From Alitta virens (Eukaryota; Annelida; Polychaeta; Phyllodocida; Nereididae), in contig OW028579.1 of the NCBI GenBank assembly GCA_932294295.1, positions 31,011,250-31,075,249 on the forward strand: a stretch of 64,000 nt of DNA. Direction: 5' to 3'. The number at the start of each line of letters is the position of its first letter. Within the stretch, counting starts at the first letter, position 1. Shown one piece after another: positions 12,484 to 56,995 of the stretch. The notes under the pieces were generated by a model. That model saw only the letters and a list, made by a program, of their open reading frames with translations. It had not been told where the DNA came from and did no database searches. A program made the translations under genes and the position numbers.

Positions 12484-13122
12484 ATGGGAATACTAGGACA
12501 TATGAACCCACAATTCAAAGAACTTGAAGCAGTGTGCACCAATGGGCACATTGTCACCCATTGTTGTAGGCCTAATTCCAGTTACCATGGCAACGGGCAT
12601 ATTGTGACGACATACCAAAATGAATTTGATGGCGGGAAATCGATGGGAGGAGGGACCTTGCCCCGTAACATTGGACGGTCCTCCCCACCACCGATCATCC
12701 GGTACCATCACCCGCAGAGGTACTCGACACCCGCGGTCTTCACCCGCACTGCACTCATCTGCTCACCCGCCAAGTCGGTGGTGCACAATCCGATTGTGGT
12801 GCACGCTCCGATCAAGTACTCGCCACATTCGCCATCAAATTCACCCATCAAGTCTGCCCTGCATTCTCCAAGCAAATCTGCCTTATGTTCTCCGAAGAAG
12901 TCTGCTCTGCATTCGCCAACCAAGTCCGCCCGCAACTCACCCACAAAGTCTGGAACTTACTCTCCCAAATGCGAGTCTCCTAGCCGCCGCGGGTCCGGCG
13001 GTATGGACTGGTTGCGGGGCGTTTATCTCTCCGCCGTGTTCTCCTGGTGCCAAATCCGACATCGACACAGGGTCAAGTCTGTCACTTTCAACAAGTACAT
13101 CGACACCATCACCTACGAAAAT
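12484..13122 (+). CDS. Coding exon, Ser/Pro-rich protein with SPxKS repeats
   Basis: This is the one convincing coding exon. From ATG at 12484 it reads 213 codons to AAT at 13120-13122, where a strong donor (gtaagt) ends it in phase 0. If unspliced the frame would run to a TGA at 13249. Third positions are strongly G/C, unlike the flanks. The protein begins with an N-terminal part containing two GHIVT motifs (about residues 22-26 and 38-42), then GGGTLPR (residues 55-61) and a Pro/His/Tyr-rich segment. Residues 120-163 are a tandem 8-residue repeat of SPxKSALH type. The exon closes with a basic part ending VTFNKYIDTITYEN. SPxK is the full consensus for CDK-type proline-directed kinases, so a multisite phosphorylated disordered region is likely; that role is inference. 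The frame is also open a little upstream (from 12433), so the exon may instead be internal with an acceptor near 12455 or 12478. I do not recognise the family. Confidence 0.75.
12841..12972 (+). repeat. In-frame 24-bp coding tandem repeat (SPxKSALH)
   Basis: Five complete 24-bp units plus a half unit encode SPIKSALH, SPSKSALC, SPKKSALH, SPTKSARN, SPTKSGTY and SPKC. Third-codon positions vary while the S-P-x-K-S core is unchanged. This pattern suggests selection on the protein rather than a recent DNA-level expansion. Confidence 0.85.
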
Positions 13123-13128
13123 GTAAGT
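13123..13128 (+). other. Splice donor of the coding exon
   Basis: GTAAGT directly follows codon 213 (AAT) and matches the U1 consensus at all six intron positions. The exonic side (AAT rather than CAG) is weaker. No matching downstream coding exon is seen up to 64000, which implies an intron of more than 50 kb unless the next exon is very small or unrecognised. Confidence 0.7.
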
Positions 13129-17517: not shown

Positions 17518-18357
17518 CCTGATCTGAAGAATGTGTTATCCAGTAACTATATCTGAAGAATGTGTTATCCAGTAACTATATCTGAAGAATGTGTTGTCCA
17601 GTAACTATATCTGAAGAATGTGTTGTCTAGTAACTATATCTGAAGAATGTGTTGTCCAGTAACTATATCTGAAGAATGTGTTATCCAGTAACTATATCTG
17701 AAGAATGTGTTGTCCAGTAACTATATCTGAAGAATGTGTTGTCCAGTAACTATATCTGAAGAATGTGTTATCCAGTAACTATATCTGAAGAATGTGTTAT
17801 CCAGTAACTATATCTGAAGAATGTGTTATCCAGTAACTATATCTGAAGAATGTGTTATCCAGTAACTATCCCTGATGAATGTGTTATCAAGTGACTATAT
17901 CTGAAGAATGTGTTGTTCAGTAACTATATCTGATGAATGTGTTATCAAGTAACTATATCTGATGAATGTGTTATCAAGTAACTATATCTGAAGAATGTGT
18001 TGTTCAGTAACTATATCTGAAGAATGTGTTGTCCAGTAACTATATCTGAAGAATGTGTTAGCCAGTAACTATATCTGAAGAATGTGTTGTTTAGTAACTA
18101 TATCAGATGAATGCGTTATCAAGTAACTATATCTGAAGAATGTGTTATCCAGTAACTATATCTGAAGAATGTGTTATCCAGTAACTATATCTGAAGAATG
18201 CGTTATCCAGTAACTATATCTGAAGAATGCGTTATCCAGTAACTATATCTGAAGAATGTGTTATCCAGTAACTATATCTGATGAATGCATTATTCAGTAA
18301 CTATATCTGAAGAATGTGTTGTCCAGTAACTATATCTGATGAATGTGTTATCCAGTA
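17518..18357 (+). repeat. 29-bp minisatellite, about 29 copies
   Basis: A tandem array of the unit ATATCTGAAGAATGTGTTAT plus CCAGTAACT spans about 840 bp. Variant positions recur as haplotypes: ATCC, GTCC or GTTC after TGTGTT, GATGAATG for GAAGAATG, and ATCAAG in place of ATCCAG. These variants fall in blocks, which suggests expansion by unequal exchange or replication slippage. There are no unique spacers, so it is not a CRISPR-like array. Confidence 0.95.
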
Positions 18358-18789
18358 ATAGATTGGATCCTTACTCTGGGTAATCCATTTAGAAAAGTAT
18401 ACCTCTTGAAGTCCATAATCTGCTCACAAAGTCTTTCAACCACTTATTATCTTCTTCATTCTCTAAAAATATCTCGTTTTGATTTTGCCCATTAACAGTG
18501 TATGGATTGGGTAGCAGAACTTGGCAAGTCATATCACAAGATACCTAGTGTTATGATTCAAACAGCTCATGCATTGGCCACAGGACACCACTTGCATTTG
18601 AAAATTAGCGGTGTGAGGATGAAGGATGAGATGATGAATGTAGACGACCCATTCCATGGAACAGACTGAAATTTGGGACCTAAACAGTGCATGGCGGTGG
18701 ACTCAAGTTACCAGCAGTCGCGGCCGCAGAAGTTTGGTTTGAACTTACTTACTCAAAGTTGCTGCCACAGAAGCTGGGCATACTAGCCA

Positions 18790-26187: not shown

Positions 26188-26221
26188 TACTAATTGTACC
26201 TTATTTTCTTTTCAGGTGAGT
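26188..26221 (+). promoter_or_regulatory. Candidate recursive splice (ratchet) site 1
   Basis: In order on the + strand: a branch-point-like TACTAAT at 26188-26194, a pyrimidine-rich tract, TTTTCAG ending at 26215, and immediately GTGAGT at 26216-26221. A strong acceptor abutting a strong donor with no exon between is the defining layout of recursive splice sites, described first in Drosophila Ubx and later in long vertebrate introns. The site lies 13.1 kb after the coding exon's donor. A second donor-like GGTGAGTT occurs at 26257-26264, as expected for the short exon that is defined first and then spliced out. Confidence 0.6.
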
Positions 26222-26257
26222 ACCAATTTTTAAACTCCATGTTTGAAGGTCTGCTTG
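26216..26257 (+). other. Possible 42-nt RS-exon or microexon 1
   Basis: Between the acceptor (AG at 26214-26215) and a downstream GTGAGT donor at 26258 lie 42 nt, a multiple of three. Continued in phase 0 from the upstream coding exon it meets TAA at 26231-26233, so inclusion would truncate the protein. In one other frame it is open (EYQFLNSMFEGLL). The stop favours the recursive-splice reading over a conserved microexon of the same gene, but a microexon of another transcript remains possible. Confidence 0.35.
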
Positions 26258-26389
26258 GTGAGTTCTTTGTTGTTTAACTCTTGATTAATGTCTAGTTTGA
26301 TAGGGTATTAAGTTTTAGATGATAGATGAACCAGATTTGATAAGATTTTAATAACTTAACAAGAAGAAATATGCAGGTTTTTCAAGCGT

Positions 26390-32880: not shown

Positions 32881-33610
32881 TGTGTTGTTGCTACCAGCCT
32901 ACCACTGCTACTCTCAGCAGCTGTGGTCTAGTGATTCTGTAGTAGTACTCAGTGATTTGTGAAGAATATGGCATTCTATGGGAGACAAGTTATGAGGAGA
33001 GCAATCCTAAGTGTCATGTCATTTCACGGGCTGTCCCTCACACATGACATGGCAATCAAGCAAGGCCATGGAGCCAGCTCACAACTGCAAGAAAAGGGCA
33101 AAGAAAATAGGGGTAGACAATGTGCCCCTCTGCCATTCACTGCTTGTCTCAGCTGCTGCGTGTTCATGTGATGTTATGTAAGGGTGCGGCAGTGGGGCTG
33201 CAAGAAAGATTTCGAGAAATGGCAGGTCAGAGTGGTGTCATGATACTGTCATGTTTAGAGGCATTGTCTAGTGTTTGTAGTGGTCTGGGTTATGCCTATC
33301 TGACTTCTTCCTTGGTATTTTATGTAATTTTCTTCTTTTCTTTTTTAGTTCCTTTAAGAGAAAGCCAGTTCACTGATTTCGTCTAAGTGGGGCTTGCCAT
33401 GACATTTCCACCGTATTTAAATGATATTTAGTTCACATTTAGTCTTCATCTAGTCAGTTATGATGGGGTACCACCCAAAGATCTCATATAAAACCACCTC
33501 CCTATTAACTTAATAGACAACCTATTTTGCTGTAAGTTAGTCGTGTATACACCAATTCTAAGGTTACCTCACCATTAAGTCCCTGTCAATGTCATAACTG
33601 GACCAATTAA
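32881..33610. other. Unannotated intronic interval
   Basis: Two short + frames (32959-33171, 33120-33386) have no recognisable domains or splice signals. ACCACCTCCCTATTAAC near 33494 recalls the decayed element at 6340-7058 but cannot be delimited. Confidence 0.4.
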
Positions 33611-40077: not shown

Positions 40078-40380
40078 GAATAGTGGATTTTCACGGAAGG
40101 TTCTCTGTATTTCCACCAGGTGGCTATGACAGAATACTGCAATGCTATTGGCTGAAAAAGTTCCCGCCCTTGGTTGTGATTGGCTGAAACGAAGTGCATC
40201 CTAGCAGCAGTATTTTTAGTGCATTTTAATGTATATTTGACTTCTGATCATTCAGTTGGTTTTTGTTATTTCCCTATGCAAGTTATATTTATTGAATAAT
40301 TTAGTTATGATCTACTATGTCTGAAAAGCAAAACGAGTAATAAGAGATTAAAGACTTATGTCCTGCTGAATTCAGGGCTG
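40078..40380 (+). mobile_element. MITE family B, copy 1
   Basis: Begins GGAATAGTGGATTTTCACGG, then TTCCACCAGGTGGCTATGAC, AATGCTATTGGCTGAAAAAG, GTGCATTTTAATGTATATTT and TATGATCTACTATGTCTGAA. It ends at GAATTCAGGGCTG, just short of the GTGAAAAGAC end seen in copies 2 and 3. It lacks the family H insertion found in copy 2. Confidence 0.85.
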
Positions 40381-41454
40381 CTATTGGTGCAATTGGGTGT
40401 CATCAGCTTTGACATTGTAGACCTCGTGTGTTGTTAATTTGCCATGATCTTTGCTGCTTGGTGCTGCCCAGAGGTCATTGACCGGTTGTCACGTGATAAG
40501 GTCGACACGTAAACAAAGTCACGTGGCATGGATCATCTTTTACCTGTAGATCTTCTGTCAGTGTGTCTGTCAGTCTGTCAAATTGTCTGTCATTTCCTCG
40601 AGGAATATGCCCTGCCACACCCATTTTAAGTACAGGAGTTGCATAAGATGTTGAAGCTAAACACAACAATTATAGGTTCTTAGAATTAGGTCAGATAGCG
40701 TCAATCTCATACTTTAAATTGCCACGTTATTTAGATTTTTACATGTTATTTGATCTAACGTTTGCAGTTTTAATCAACTATCGCATATTAGAATATGAAT
40801 ATGTGAATTCACGGGTAAGGTGTTTTTTTTTTGTTTTTTTTTTGTTTTTTTTAAGTAGAGTATGAAAACCTAGTTTCTTACGTTCGTGCCATTTTGGCAC
40901 GAGATTCTTTCATGAATGAGCTCGATTTTGTAGTTTTCCATAAACATTCTTTAGTAACACTTGAATCATTCTCATTAGCACCCTGACATTAACCCGAGTG
41001 AACTCAACACCCCACAACATTTTTTGTGTATAATGCATTATAGATGACATGCCAGACCTTTTTACTGCTTTTTTACTGCAGCACCATTATTATGATAATT
41101 GCTCCATCTCAATCTATGTATAGTTAATGCGAGTCTTACACACTAGGGCTATGCTAGCAATTTAGCAATTCCACGGTGTCCAGTGTCTGTCCACTATCTG
41201 ACCTTGTGGTCAAGGGCATGTCCCCCTGGGAGCCAATTATAGCAAGACAAGTACTTGATCAATTGCTCTGATGGGCCTGCTAATTAACTCAAGTGAAATG
41301 GCCAACAATTGAGAGAATACCTACACTCCAGGGCCCAAGACAATTAGCCATCAAGGAGCAACCACACTGTCTCTTAGTTCTGCATCTGATTTAACCACAA
41401 CTATAGTCCTTGAGTACAGTTATAGAACAGTTAAGACTGAATTGGCCTAAACAG
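40381..41454. other. Unannotated intronic interval
   Basis: A T-rich tract with repeated TTTTTTTTG lies at 40825-40852. No exon is supported. Confidence 0.45.
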
Positions 41455-48491: not shown

Positions 48492-49184
48492 TATTGAAAT
48501 CTTAAGAGTCCTCCCTAGATTTATTTTTCGCCGTGAAGAGTACTTATTGACATTTGAGCATTTCACATGGCTATGGAAACCTTAAGTGCCTATATTAATT
48601 TAATCTTTTTGTTGACATGGCTGCTCAAATGAGACTCAGTTGAAAGAAGAGATTAATTGCCCCTAAAATTGACAATGCACCTTGAGCAATCATGAGCAAC
48701 CTGCCCGGGAACACCATGCTGCTAATTGAAGCTGGGATTTCTAATTGGCTCTGTGGGTACATTTAGAATTGGTGACATTTACGATGGGAATCCTGCCTTG
48801 ATGTAATGGCTGATTTTGAAATGTAATAAAAATATAGGTAAGGATATGAGATTATTTTTTGTTTTCGTACATTTTGGGAAGTCTCTGGAAGTTAGATTGT
48901 TGTGACAGTATGGTAACAATTTTTTTTAAATTTGAATCTGGAACACAGCATTTCTTGATCGTTGTGTTATTCGAGACATTGTTGATGACTATATTTCCAT
49001 TGTATTTCCATGAACTATAGCTGTGAAATGTACTTTGCAGTTTTGTAATTGCTGCACTTGGCTGTTATATCCAGTTTTCTTTATGTTAGAGCTGAGGCTA
49101 CTTTTATACATTTTATACAATCTTAGAAACAGAGTAGTTTAACCCCACAATTTACTCCCCAACAGGTGATTTACTCTGTTGAAG
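48492..49184. other. Unannotated intronic interval
   Basis: Unique AT-rich sequence. No exon is supported. Confidence 0.45.
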
Positions 49185-51122: not shown

Positions 51123-52822
51123 TGATGATGATGACGATGATGCATGATCATTTGATCCTTCATACCATGACACCAAATCTGACCATTTCCATCGAATCTC
51201 ATCGATTTTGGCAAATGACTGAATATTATGATTGGACTGGACAACCAAGACCTCAATCATGGCCAATCAAGAAACCCAATCAAAATGTCCTATCAAGAGT
51301 CTTTGAAGGTCCCTTGCGGCATTGTATTGGTGGAAATTCAGGCTGCAAAATCCATACCATCAGAGGAGCATGACAAAGGTTGCATGTCAATAGCTGAAGT
51401 GGACTGTTAATCTTGACCGCTGTGTGTTTGAACAAGACCTATTGGTCAAGTACAGGGCCTCTGATTTATGGCCATCTATTAAAATGGATCAAAGATAAGG
51501 TCAGGCAAACAATACCAGCCAGGAATATTGGCCCTGGGCCTGCCAGAGTGGACATGACCTGAAACCAAGGTCCATCTGATGACAAGTAGTGGCTTGGTAC
51601 TGTGCACCATTCAGTATGTGGTAGACTTTTCTGTACTATGTAGCGATCCACAACTTTAGGTCCCTCTTTCTATAATACTTTAGAATAAATAATATAAAAA
51701 ACTGCCAGTTTGAAACACAAATTTTCATGCAGATTTTAACTGTAATTGGAATAAATTTGTGAAGGGTGGTATTTTTTCTGATATCCTGATATAAATGTCA
51801 GTGGCTGGTTATTAGGATTATCATATTTGTCAGTTTGTAGAACTTTGTTGTTTTGTAAGGTTGGCCAAGTTATAGACACTTACATTAAAAATTAAATTGT
51901 AGAGGCTACAATTTGTTGCATTAATAACATTTTGACTAGTGCATATTTAATGTCAGAATATACTTTTCTATGACTATATGTGCATTTTGTGATATGGCTC
52001 TTTAGATTAAAATAGTTTACCTTACACTTTAGCATGAGGATGTTATTACAGATATATTTCTAGCTACCTGACACTAACTGTTGCACTGTTGGTGCCATAA
52101 TTCTTTCAGTATGATTATATTATTGAATACTTCCTAGTTTCTCCAATCCACATTGAATACAGCCTTAACATTCCATATCTAGTCTGTTTATAAACAGAAG
52201 AGAATCGTGTGAGAATCTCATTATGATTACATGGCATATATATCTCTCCTTCCACACTCTTATTTTCTATCTGTTATCTGATATTAATAAGATGCACTAT
52301 TTAATATCCTATATGATGCCATTCTTCATATTGCCTGCAGTGTATGCTTGCATCCTGGTACATATCTTCCATAATTTCATCTTCAGATGATCTGATGCTA
52401 TCAGCATAATATTTCATCTTTGAATCATTCTAAAATGTATATGGCATCTGCAATAATAATATTGGTGAATTTCGTGTCGAAACCTAAAATGAGTCGCATA
52501 TTACCTCGATTATAGTAATTAAAATCTGAATATATTCTGCCACTGTCATGTTTATGTAGAATTATATTGTTGTGTGTGTTTTGTTGATAGTAGTTTCAGG
52601 TCAATTATAGTATATACTGGCATAATACTGCCTCATCTAAGTTGGTGTATTTGCAACTGAGACAGCTAGCATAGTTTTGGGATTCCCATATAATGTGACA
52701 TGGTAATACCTTATAATGGAATTAAGATGCTAGACACGAAGACAGTTAGTGATTACTTTACTTTGGTTTCAAAACTAGGAATGAAATGTTAAAAAGTTCC
52801 CGAAGTAGGCTGATGTCGATAT
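51123..52822. other. Unannotated intronic interval
   Basis: Very AT-rich from about 51660 onward. No exon, SINE or MITE is recognised over about 1.7 kb, unusually clean for this window. Confidence 0.45.
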
Positions 52823-52979
52823 TACAGCCAATTTCATAGACTTGGAAACTAAGCTTCAGAGGACATCATGCGAATCAAGGACTCCCATTGGCCAATGCAA
52901 TCCTTCAGCCAATGGGAATCCTGGATTCACAGTGACATCATCTGAAGTTTTGTTTCCATGTTTGTGGAATTGGATGTAC
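52823..52979. mobile_element. Palindromic MITE family A, copy 7
   Basis: Runs from TTACAGCCAATTTCATAGAC to GTGGAATTGGATGTA. The central pair CCCATTGGCCAATGCAATCC and TTCAGCCAATGGGAATCC is well kept. It lies 319 bp upstream of ratchet site 2. Confidence 0.9.
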
Positions 52980-53265
52980 ACCACATCAGGAATTATTAAG
53001 GATGGTATTAAATGAATTACGATGTTCAAAAGTACCTCTGGACAACTAGAAAGATACATGAGGCCAAAATGTTGGCGTTTAATATGTATTGATGAAGCCA
53101 TTGCATTTTAATGTAAAACGATATTATTTAGTCTAAGATATTTCTGCTTGAGAGGAAAAAAGGCATCGAAGTTTTCATATTGTTTTGCACATGTTGAAGT
53201 CTTACATGTAAGGTTTAGGAGCTTTTGAAAGAGATTTTACCTGTTTCATGTGAAGTTTGTTCAAT

Positions 53266-53303
53266 TGACTAATGTCTTTCTTTGTTTATCTTTTCAGGTG
53301 AGT
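53266..53303 (+). promoter_or_regulatory. Candidate recursive splice (ratchet) site 2
   Basis: In order on the + strand: a branch-point-like TGACTAAT at about 53266-53273, the pyrimidine tract TCTTTCTTTGTTTATC, TTTTCAG ending at 53297, and at once GTGAGT at 53298-53303. The layout, spacing (25 nt from the branch A) and hexamer are the same as at ratchet site 1, in the same strand and presumed intron, 27.1 kb further on. A second donor-like GTAATG lies at 53331. Confidence 0.6.
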
Positions 53304-53330
53304 ATTCAAGCAACCAAACACAACAATCTG
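53298..53330 (+). other. Possible 33-nt RS-exon or microexon 2
   Basis: The 33 nt between the acceptor and the GTAATG at 53331 are a multiple of three. In phase 0 from the upstream exon they are open (VSIQATKHNNL), so inclusion would add 11 residues rather than a stop. Another open reading is EYSSNQTQQSG. A conserved alternative microexon is therefore a stronger rival explanation here than at site 1. Confidence 0.35.
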
Positions 53331-53486
53331 GTAATGTAAACTTATGCATTATTTTTATGATGAATCTATATGATATTGCAATATAGCTTTGAAAGAATAA
53401 GGCAAATAATGGTCGGACACTATTTCTGCTCTAATATTGATATATCGATTCCAGTAGAACATTTGTATGTATGCTTCATAAATGTT

Positions 53487-53641
53487 TACAGCAGATTTCA
53501 TAACTCGGAAACAAAGCTCCGGATGATGTTATGCGAATCCAGGACTCCCATTGGCTGAGGGATTGCTTTGACCAATAGGAATCCAGGATTCATGTGATGT
53601 CGTCTGGAGTTCAGTTTCCAAGTCTATGAAATCTGCTGTTA
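53487..53641. mobile_element. Palindromic MITE family A, copy 8
   Basis: Runs from TTACAGCAGATTTCATAACT to GTCTATGAAATCTGCTGTTA. Both GAATCCAGGACTCCCATTGG and its inverse CCAATAGGAATCCAGGATTC are present. It lies about 156 bp downstream of the 33-nt interval. Confidence 0.9.
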
Positions 53642-54804
53642 GCAAAATTTTAGAAACATAAAAATGTCCATTTCATAAAGCATATTTGGATCTACAACTA
53701 TAGGCCACTAGAAATGGAAATGTTAAATATATGATTTCCATAAATAGAAGGTTGACCTTATTATTTGACCTTAGGCATATGCTGTTGTATTAATACCTCG
53801 AACATGTATGACTTCCAATGAATATATATCATTATCCCATGTCCTATTATTAGACTATATAAAACACATGGTCTTACTTGTGTGAGTGATGGAATCGGTC
53901 AAAACTATTTCTGGAAAGGCCAGGAAAGCAACGAGACCTGCAGGGATTTGGGGACAAAAGATGTCTAGGCAGGGGTCAATAGGGATTATTGTGGTCTTTT
54001 CGCTATTGTGGTTACTCTATATATTGAGAACTGGTTGGCTCTTGTTTGCTTAGTAAATTGCTACATTGAGATACTGCTACATTGTGTGCAATAGACAATT
54101 TATGATGGTAACATCATATATATCATGATTTGCATGTGGTATTGATGAAATGTTCGTTTTTCAAATCATAAAACCTTTGGTTTGACTAATATGGCTTCAT
54201 GCCATTAGGTCCTTATAAGGTGGAGATTTTGCTATAGAATTTGGCTAATTGGTACAACATTGTTGCATTACCAAAAAATGGCAATATGAGGGAATATGTT
54301 GATGTTTAGGGAAATATCCTGTCTTTCCAATTAGGTGATTTAGTCATAAAACTAGTGATTTTGTCATAAAACTAGATGTACAAATCCACATTTTTGGATA
54401 GTTACACTTGAGAAATAGATAATCTGCATAGATGATTATCAAGACCTGATATTTATTTCCTCTTAATGGAAAACCCTGATTTATCCTGATTGTAAAAGGG
54501 TTAATACAGTGATAATACACTGCAATAAAATGTACAATGTATTAAGATCAATAATATACTGTATAATTACCATAAGGCAATGCAGTAAAGCATTGAATAA
54601 TAAGACAGACATATGGGTAGACATTGCTGAGGGTTTTTTATGCACTGCCTGCTTGACTCTTTTTCCTCTTTTTGCCCTCACCCACTTACTTGTTGGAAGC
54701 AATTTTTCAAGAACTGCAGGAAGCGTGCTTATCATCTGCTGACAACTACTAACTGTGCTAAGTCCTTGCTTCCTTTTTCCTAGTGGCCCATAAACTGCAG
54801 TCAT
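53642..54804. other. Unannotated intronic interval
   Basis: AT-rich. The minus frame at 54481-54840 (119 codons) has a basic stretch (KWVRAKRGKRVKQAVHKK) but no domain I recognise and no splice signals. It may be chance or a transposon scrap. Confidence 0.35.
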
Positions 54805-56006: not shown

Positions 56007-56919
56007 GGTAGATCTGCTTTATATTTGAAAGTAGATGTGATATTCCACTATTGTGGTAACTGATATTTGTGAAATATTTTCCACTTCCTCCGTTTGGCGT
56101 GGGTTTATCACACACCTAGCACTCGTAACAAACAAGAATGAATTGCTTGAGATATGATTATGCAATGCAATTTTCTTACTAAGTTATTTATTGTGATAAA
56201 CTAAGAAGGCACTCAAGAGTGAAAACATCTACCAGAGTCATGAAAAGTCTTCTGGATCCAGAATTTCTAAATATGATTATAATCAACTGGAAAACTTAAT
56301 CGCTGCTTCTCCAGGGCACCACTTATATGTCTATGAAATTTGACTGGCTTCGTCCGAAACTGGACATCTTGCTGAATGGACATCCACTGAATACTTTCGA
56401 AAGTACCATGTCAATGGAATAGACCAATCAGTTGTTATATTGTGACCACCAAGTTTAGAACTGATTAATAACTTTCAGCCTGAGGAATTTATTGCTTGAC
56501 AAAGTTTAGAGTTTGACAGCTCATATGGCTTTGATATTCAAATGATATTTCCTCTCCAATAAGTTAATAACCAGACTGCCATTAAAACGTCAAGTGTGGT
56601 TTCATCCAATCTTCTAGGACGTCATTTTCATTTTGAAAGCTGATTTTTATTGAATAATAGCCCCAATATTAATAGGCAGGATTTGCTAAACGATTCTGAA
56701 GTTAATAGCTCGTTAGTTGTTTTAACTTTTGAAGTTTTGCAATGGACAGAATTTCTTTTAGAGAAATTGATGATTATGACTGGGTCTTAACTGGATTAGC
56801 CTATTAGGGCAAGATTTATAGAAAGATTTATAGTTTTGACATTTCATAGATATGTTGTTATTTATTGGAAAGCAATACAATCCAATATAAAATAGCTATT
56901 GTGATGTTTCTGAGATCCC
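56007..56919. other. Unannotated intronic interval
   Basis: AT-rich unique sequence. No exon or repeat family is recognised. Confidence 0.45.
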
Positions 56920-56995
56920 AGGTGGTCTAGTGGTTAGGATTTGGCTGTCAATGCCGCGACCAGGGTTCGATTTCCCGTATGGGAACCACTGTATA
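56920..56995 (+). mobile_element. tRNA-Glu-like head, separate SINE fragment
   Basis: TCCCAGGTGGTCTAGTGGTT, AGGATT and AGGGTTCGATTTCCCGTATG plus GGA closely follow the tRNA-Glu layout, with a partly pairing acceptor (TCCCA/TGGGA). The anticodon stem pairs poorly and the would-be anticodon is not a Glu one, so it is a tRNA relic rather than a working gene. Confidence 0.55.

Follow-up and report, generated by a model that had tools for sequence, protein, structure and literature searches.

The junction at position 53298 of the 64,000-nt stretch of Alitta virens DNA analysed here (the window) is probably a recursive splice site, the later of two in a very long intron with its 5' end at 13123. 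This reading draws on (i) the sequence elements found at 53298 (site 2) and at a second junction at 26216 (site 1), (ii) the rarity of such junctions in the window, (iii) their location on the + strand, which is the strand of a coding exon with a donor that lies upstream of both sites, and (iv) the conservation of that exon (exon 1). The features are listed below, with a slash at each splice junction.

12484–13122, + strand: coding exon upstream of the intron, 213 aa, phase 0 end, closing with ...TYEN
13123–13128, + strand: native 5' splice site, AAT/GTAAGT
26188–26194, + strand: branch-like TACTAAT of site 1, A at 26193
26209–26221, + strand: TTTTCAG/GTGAGT of site 1, junction at 26216
26216–26257, + strand: putative RS-exon 1, 42 nt, carrying a stop codon in the exon 1 frame
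26258–26263, + strand: donor of RS-exon 1, TTG/GTGAGT, strong, rank 24 of 4089 GT positions on the + strand
53267–53273, + strand: branch-like GACTAAT of site 2, A at 53272
53274–53297, + strand: pyrimidine tract and acceptor of site 2, ending in TTTTCAG (53291–53297)
53298–53303, + strand: donor half of site 2, GTGAGT, directly adjoining TTTTCAG
53298–53330, + strand: putative RS-exon 2, 33 nt, VSIQATKHNNL, open in the exon 1 frame
53331–53336, + strand: weak putative donor of RS-exon 2, CTG/GTAATG, rank 123 of 4089 GT positions on the + strand

Architecture of the two sites

At site 2, a strong 3' splice site directly abuts a strong 5' splice site (AG/GT), with a branch-like sequence and an AG-free pyrimidine tract in range. 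Direct reading of the sequence places TGACTAAT at 53266–53273, such that the branch-like A at 53272 lies 26 nt from the first donor base and ACTAAT lies 25 nt before the last intron base, and the 40 nt that precede the acceptor AG are free of another AG. An initial annotation had reported this architecture at 53266–53336, and each of its elements is present where it was placed. Site 1 has the same build, with ACTAAT 22 nt before the last intron base and 30 nt before the acceptor that contain no other AG. The downstream donor is stronger at site 1 (after 42 nt) than at site 2 (after 33 nt): 3% of random positions match the downstream donor quality of site 1, and a donor as good as that of site 2 is found within 15–100 nt downstream of about 14% of 5000 random positions. 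The GTAATG downstream of site 2 is weak, is not special when taken alone and could be there by chance.

The upstream exon and its relatives

Exon 12484–13122 has two relatives, encoded on contigs of 1243 and 1734 bases, with identities of 73% and 67% by BLASTP (86% and 72% over aligned columns). Both relatives read V-S at the donor position, as GTAAGT does when translated, and are divergent after it, as expected if the exon end at 13122 is conserved. Protein searches returned no spliced relative that could supply the next exon; the two real relatives both read into the intron, and an additional protein match at E 4.4 was left unused. The gene is left unnamed because its exon protein matches no Pfam or NCBIfam family and has no significant match in the PDB (best E 0.57 and 0.27, to a designed protein). 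The conserved protein start encoded by the exon has many SP-K repeats and a strongly conserved end, in which RHRHRVKSVTFNKYIDTITYEN is identical in all three sequences and contains KSVTF, which we take to resemble a PP1-docking motif.

Proposed splicing pathway

In the pathway proposed, the exon and the two sites would lie in one transcript. Exon 12484–13122 would be joined to the acceptor at 26215 in the first step, after the RS-exon at 26216–26257 has been defined as an exon by means of its donor at 26258, and the product would carry a rebuilt donor, AAT/GTGAGT. In the second step, this rebuilt donor would be joined to the acceptor at 53297, with a short RS-exon once more defining the acceptor, and AAT/GTGAGT would be formed anew. 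The third step would use the rebuilt donor for joining to an acceptor beyond the window, and the mRNA would keep no trace of either site.

The multi-step intron with ratchet points that the initial annotation had suggested is retained as the best reading of two exceptional AG/GT sites with unrelated flanks, both of which follow a conserved exon ending in GTAAGT and share its coding strand. Two amendments concern the interval that follows the junction and the expected behaviour of the two sites. At each site, the stretch between the junction and the following donor (42 nt at site 1 and 33 nt at site 2) is more plausibly an RS-exon. Inclusion of the 33 nt in mature transcripts had also been offered as a refutation of recursion; by itself it does not suffice, because Ubx microexons are made through RS-exons, according to the accessible portion of PMC8605326.

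An alternative takes the 33-nt interval as an ordinary microexon, perhaps a neuronal one, with an accidental GTGAGT at its start and VSIQATKHNNL present in the mRNA. The interval has a length divisible by three, is open in the exon 1 frame and is directly followed by the donor-like CTG/GTAATG; however, this donor ranks only 123 of 4089, an open frame of 11 codons is presumably common by chance, the corresponding interval of site 1 has a stop in the exon 1 frame, and the GTGAGT at the start of both intervals is left unexplained. An ordinary microexon is thus unlikely, and a microexon is in any case not exclusive of recursion, as Ubx m1 and other expressed RS-exons belong to both categories.

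The putative long intron

The distance from the exon to site 1 is 13,093 nt and from site 1 to site 2 is 27,082 nt, in agreement with the segments of about 13.1 kb and 27.1 kb proposed initially, and both sites fall within 40.2 kb of intron. The 3' end of the intron is not found within the 64-kb window, and in the best reading the remainder of the intron after these two segments falls outside it.

Ordinary exons within the interval were considered and rejected: exon-like acceptor-donor pairs over the putative intron number 18 on the + strand and 19 on the − strand, and thus show no excess of ordinary exons. The pair cut-offs were 4 and 3, which leaves the 33-nt interval of site 2, with its donor score of 1.8, outside the 18. 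A total of 127 ORFs of at least 55 aa are present on the + strand of the whole window. The 19 + strand ORFs tested downstream of 13123 (at least 80 aa and with no dominant residue by a composition filter, a range that places shorter exons outside coverage) have no Pfam domain above the cut-off; one weak match below it (PF13398, E 0.035) was set aside. No known RNA family reaches the Rfam gathering score within the window.

These counts bear on a further alternative, in which the sites serve some other same-strand transcript (a non-coding RNA or an alternative first exon) and not the intron of exon 12484–13122. Consistent with such a transcript, the intron end falls outside the window and further acceptor-donor pairs occur on the + strand, the best being 41082–41454 (score 12.5, with no open frame) and the only one open in phase 0 being 33153–33225 (donor GTCAGA). 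We nevertheless consider it very unlikely, given that the + strand has no more pairs than the − strand and that the tested ORFs are without a Pfam domain above the cut-off.

Rarity of the joined sites

A total of 452 AGGT positions of the window (241 on the + strand and 211 on the − strand) were scored with approximate metazoan splice-site matrices that are not trained on this genome. The two sites rank first and second with scores of 12.8 and 10.7, followed by 5.7 (on the − strand) and, on the + strand, 3.8. A normalised score of the joined motif, modelled on the procedure of PMC6110457 as given in the available part of that paper but computed with our own matrices, likewise places the two sites first and second (0.964 and 0.946), the next being 0.889 at 49166. 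The sequence TTTTCAGGTGAGT occurs twice on the + strand of the window and not on the − strand. GTRAGT is present 25 times on the + strand (8 GTAAGT and 17 GTGAGT); four of these follow AG, and only those of sites 1 and 2 follow CAG. From the separate rates of acceptors and donors, 0.007 joint sites are expected on the + strand.

Shuffle controls (dinucleotide shuffles in 2-kb blocks, one strand, score threshold 10.65) gave 8 sites of at least 10.65 in 400 shuffles, including one at 13.64 that is above site 2, and no shuffle with two sites. In 5000 further shuffles, 92 sites of at least 10.65 were obtained, with ACTAAY upstream in 4 of the 92. The tally of downstream donors in these 5000 shuffles, which used a cut-off of 1.77 narrowly missed by site 2 itself, is kept out of the argument. 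The earlier claim that two such similar sites are hard to explain by chance is upheld by ranks 1 and 2 among the 452 positions and by the single two-site shuffle in 5000. The flanks of sites 1 and 2 match over a 19-nt core only; thus, the sites are not copies of one element, and an origin as copies of one repeat is ruled out.

That a good acceptor and a good donor are juxtaposed by chance and have no function is considered very unlikely: the matrices are approximate, single sites of this grade arise in about 1 of 54 one-strand shuffles and site 2 was outscored once in 400, but two sites on the same strand are as rare as stated above, ACTAAT lies at the usual branch distance in both, and the best antisense score is just 5.7.

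Donor competition and RNA folding

In flies and vertebrates, splicing at a recursive acceptor begins with its recognition as the 5' edge of a short RS-exon; afterwards, the RS-exon donor faces competition from the donor rebuilt at the junction (PMC8605326 and PMC6224609, in the sections available). U1 pairing, computed with the U1 5' end sequence and, for the rebuilt donors, with the exon 1 end AAT, is −7.0 kcal/mol for the native donor. At site 1, the rebuilt donor pairs at −6.9 kcal/mol versus −9.2 kcal/mol for the donor of RS-exon 1; at site 2, the values are −7.4 kcal/mol for the rebuilt donor versus −6.4 kcal/mol for the donor of RS-exon 2. The rebuilt donors are only moderate because exon 1 ends in T. 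As the donor of RS-exon 1 out-pairs the rebuilt donor with U1, partial inclusion of RS-exon 1 with its in-frame stop is predicted, and donor competition in this model foresees that RS-exon 2 is skipped. Sites 1 and 2 should therefore, by the modelled pairing, behave differently. A possible though doubtful extension is that the two form an unequal pair in one intron, in which site 1 would be a regulated poison RS-exon and site 2 a silent zero-nucleotide ratchet.

Donor competition does not always predict the outcome. In the available text of PMC8605326, a fly hth reporter skips its RS-exon though the ratchet donor is the weaker one, and the Ubx m1 and msi RS-exons are included although the ratchet donor is the stronger.

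Predicted folding gives no sign of special openness at either site. The unpaired probability of the tract is 0.35 at site 2 and 0.47 at site 1, that of the donor is 0.21 and 0.25, respectively, and the regional means are 0.38 and 0.37.

Repeats and other features of the window

Site 2 sits between inverted copies of a self-palindromic MITE-like repeat (52824–52970 and 53488–53640, with 108-nt arms that are 83% complementary). A location of site 2 inside a transposon is rejected, as the site is between the two copies and not in one. The minimum-energy fold predicted for 52800–53660 (−308 kcal/mol, a value without a shuffle control) pairs the MITE-like copies around site 2. The family is found by BLAST at 11 places in the window; thus, the arrangement around site 2 may be accidental.

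A dispersed repeat with an acceptor-like end, CCACCAG followed directly by GTGGCTATGACA, is present at 40120 (+), 48113 (+) and 61508 (−), and two of its copies account for the third and fourth best AGGT scores of the + strand. ARAGORN detects a tRNA-SeC-like gene at 56916–56988, which may be a tRNA-derived repeat as no Rfam family is matched at the gathering score. A tandem array at 17522–18358 comprises 28.9 copies of a 29-nt unit with 93% matches.

Comparison with known recursive splicing

Sibley 2015, as cited in PMC8605326 and PMC6224609, is reported to have described cryptic RS-exons in long genes of vertebrates. The sites of the window are like vertebrate cryptic RS-exons in that each putative RS-exon is followed by a donor-like sequence of its own, weak at site 2, and that the RS-exon of site 1, if kept, has an in-frame stop. 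By contrast, a pair of sites in 40.2 kb of intron would be a high density for a vertebrate, the human rate being 0.122 per 100 kb by the scoring of PMC2773006 itself, as given in the part of the paper at hand.

A further likeness is to the intronic ratchet points of Drosophila (Ubx, kuz, Bx and others), where, in the accessible sections of PMC8605326 and PMC6110457, acceptor and donor are juxtaposed at AG/GT in long introns and a short cryptic RS-exon (about 50 nt in fly) is closed by a downstream donor. Another 5' splice site follows most fly sites at a distance of less than 100 nt (PMC6224609, available sections), a pattern that both sites of the window fit, site 2 weakly. Unlike the Drosophila ratchet points, the sites described here are predicted from sequence, and exon 1 ends in T, such that at site 1 the donor of the RS-exon is not surpassed by the rebuilt one.

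In the accessible text of PMC2773006, predicted RP-sites are enriched over the complementary strands in the large introns of five animals, namely sea urchin, fly, mosquito, bee and beetle; in sea urchin introns of more than 50 kb, the sense strand has 0.540 and the complementary strand 0.066 per 100 kb. The sites of the window share the motif class of the sea urchin, mosquito, bee and beetle RP-sites, which show a sense-strand excess in large introns, but differ in that the count of PMC2773006 is, in that text, genome-wide and does not describe individual sites. Among the titles and abstract openings retrieved from the non-subscription literature on recursive splicing, no single site of this kind is described in another invertebrate.

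The locus looks like a new example of a known mechanism and not a new mechanism. In the portions of the literature covered here, RNA proof of recursive splicing comes from flies and vertebrates only, whereas for other animals counts have served to predict it. A single intron with two clear sites, in what is probably another animal, would provide an added locus for the study of step order, exon definition and donor competition, and their unequal donors give a sharp prediction as to which RS-exon is kept. If the two sites do form an unequal pair, production of protein from the gene would hinge on the first step of intron removal.
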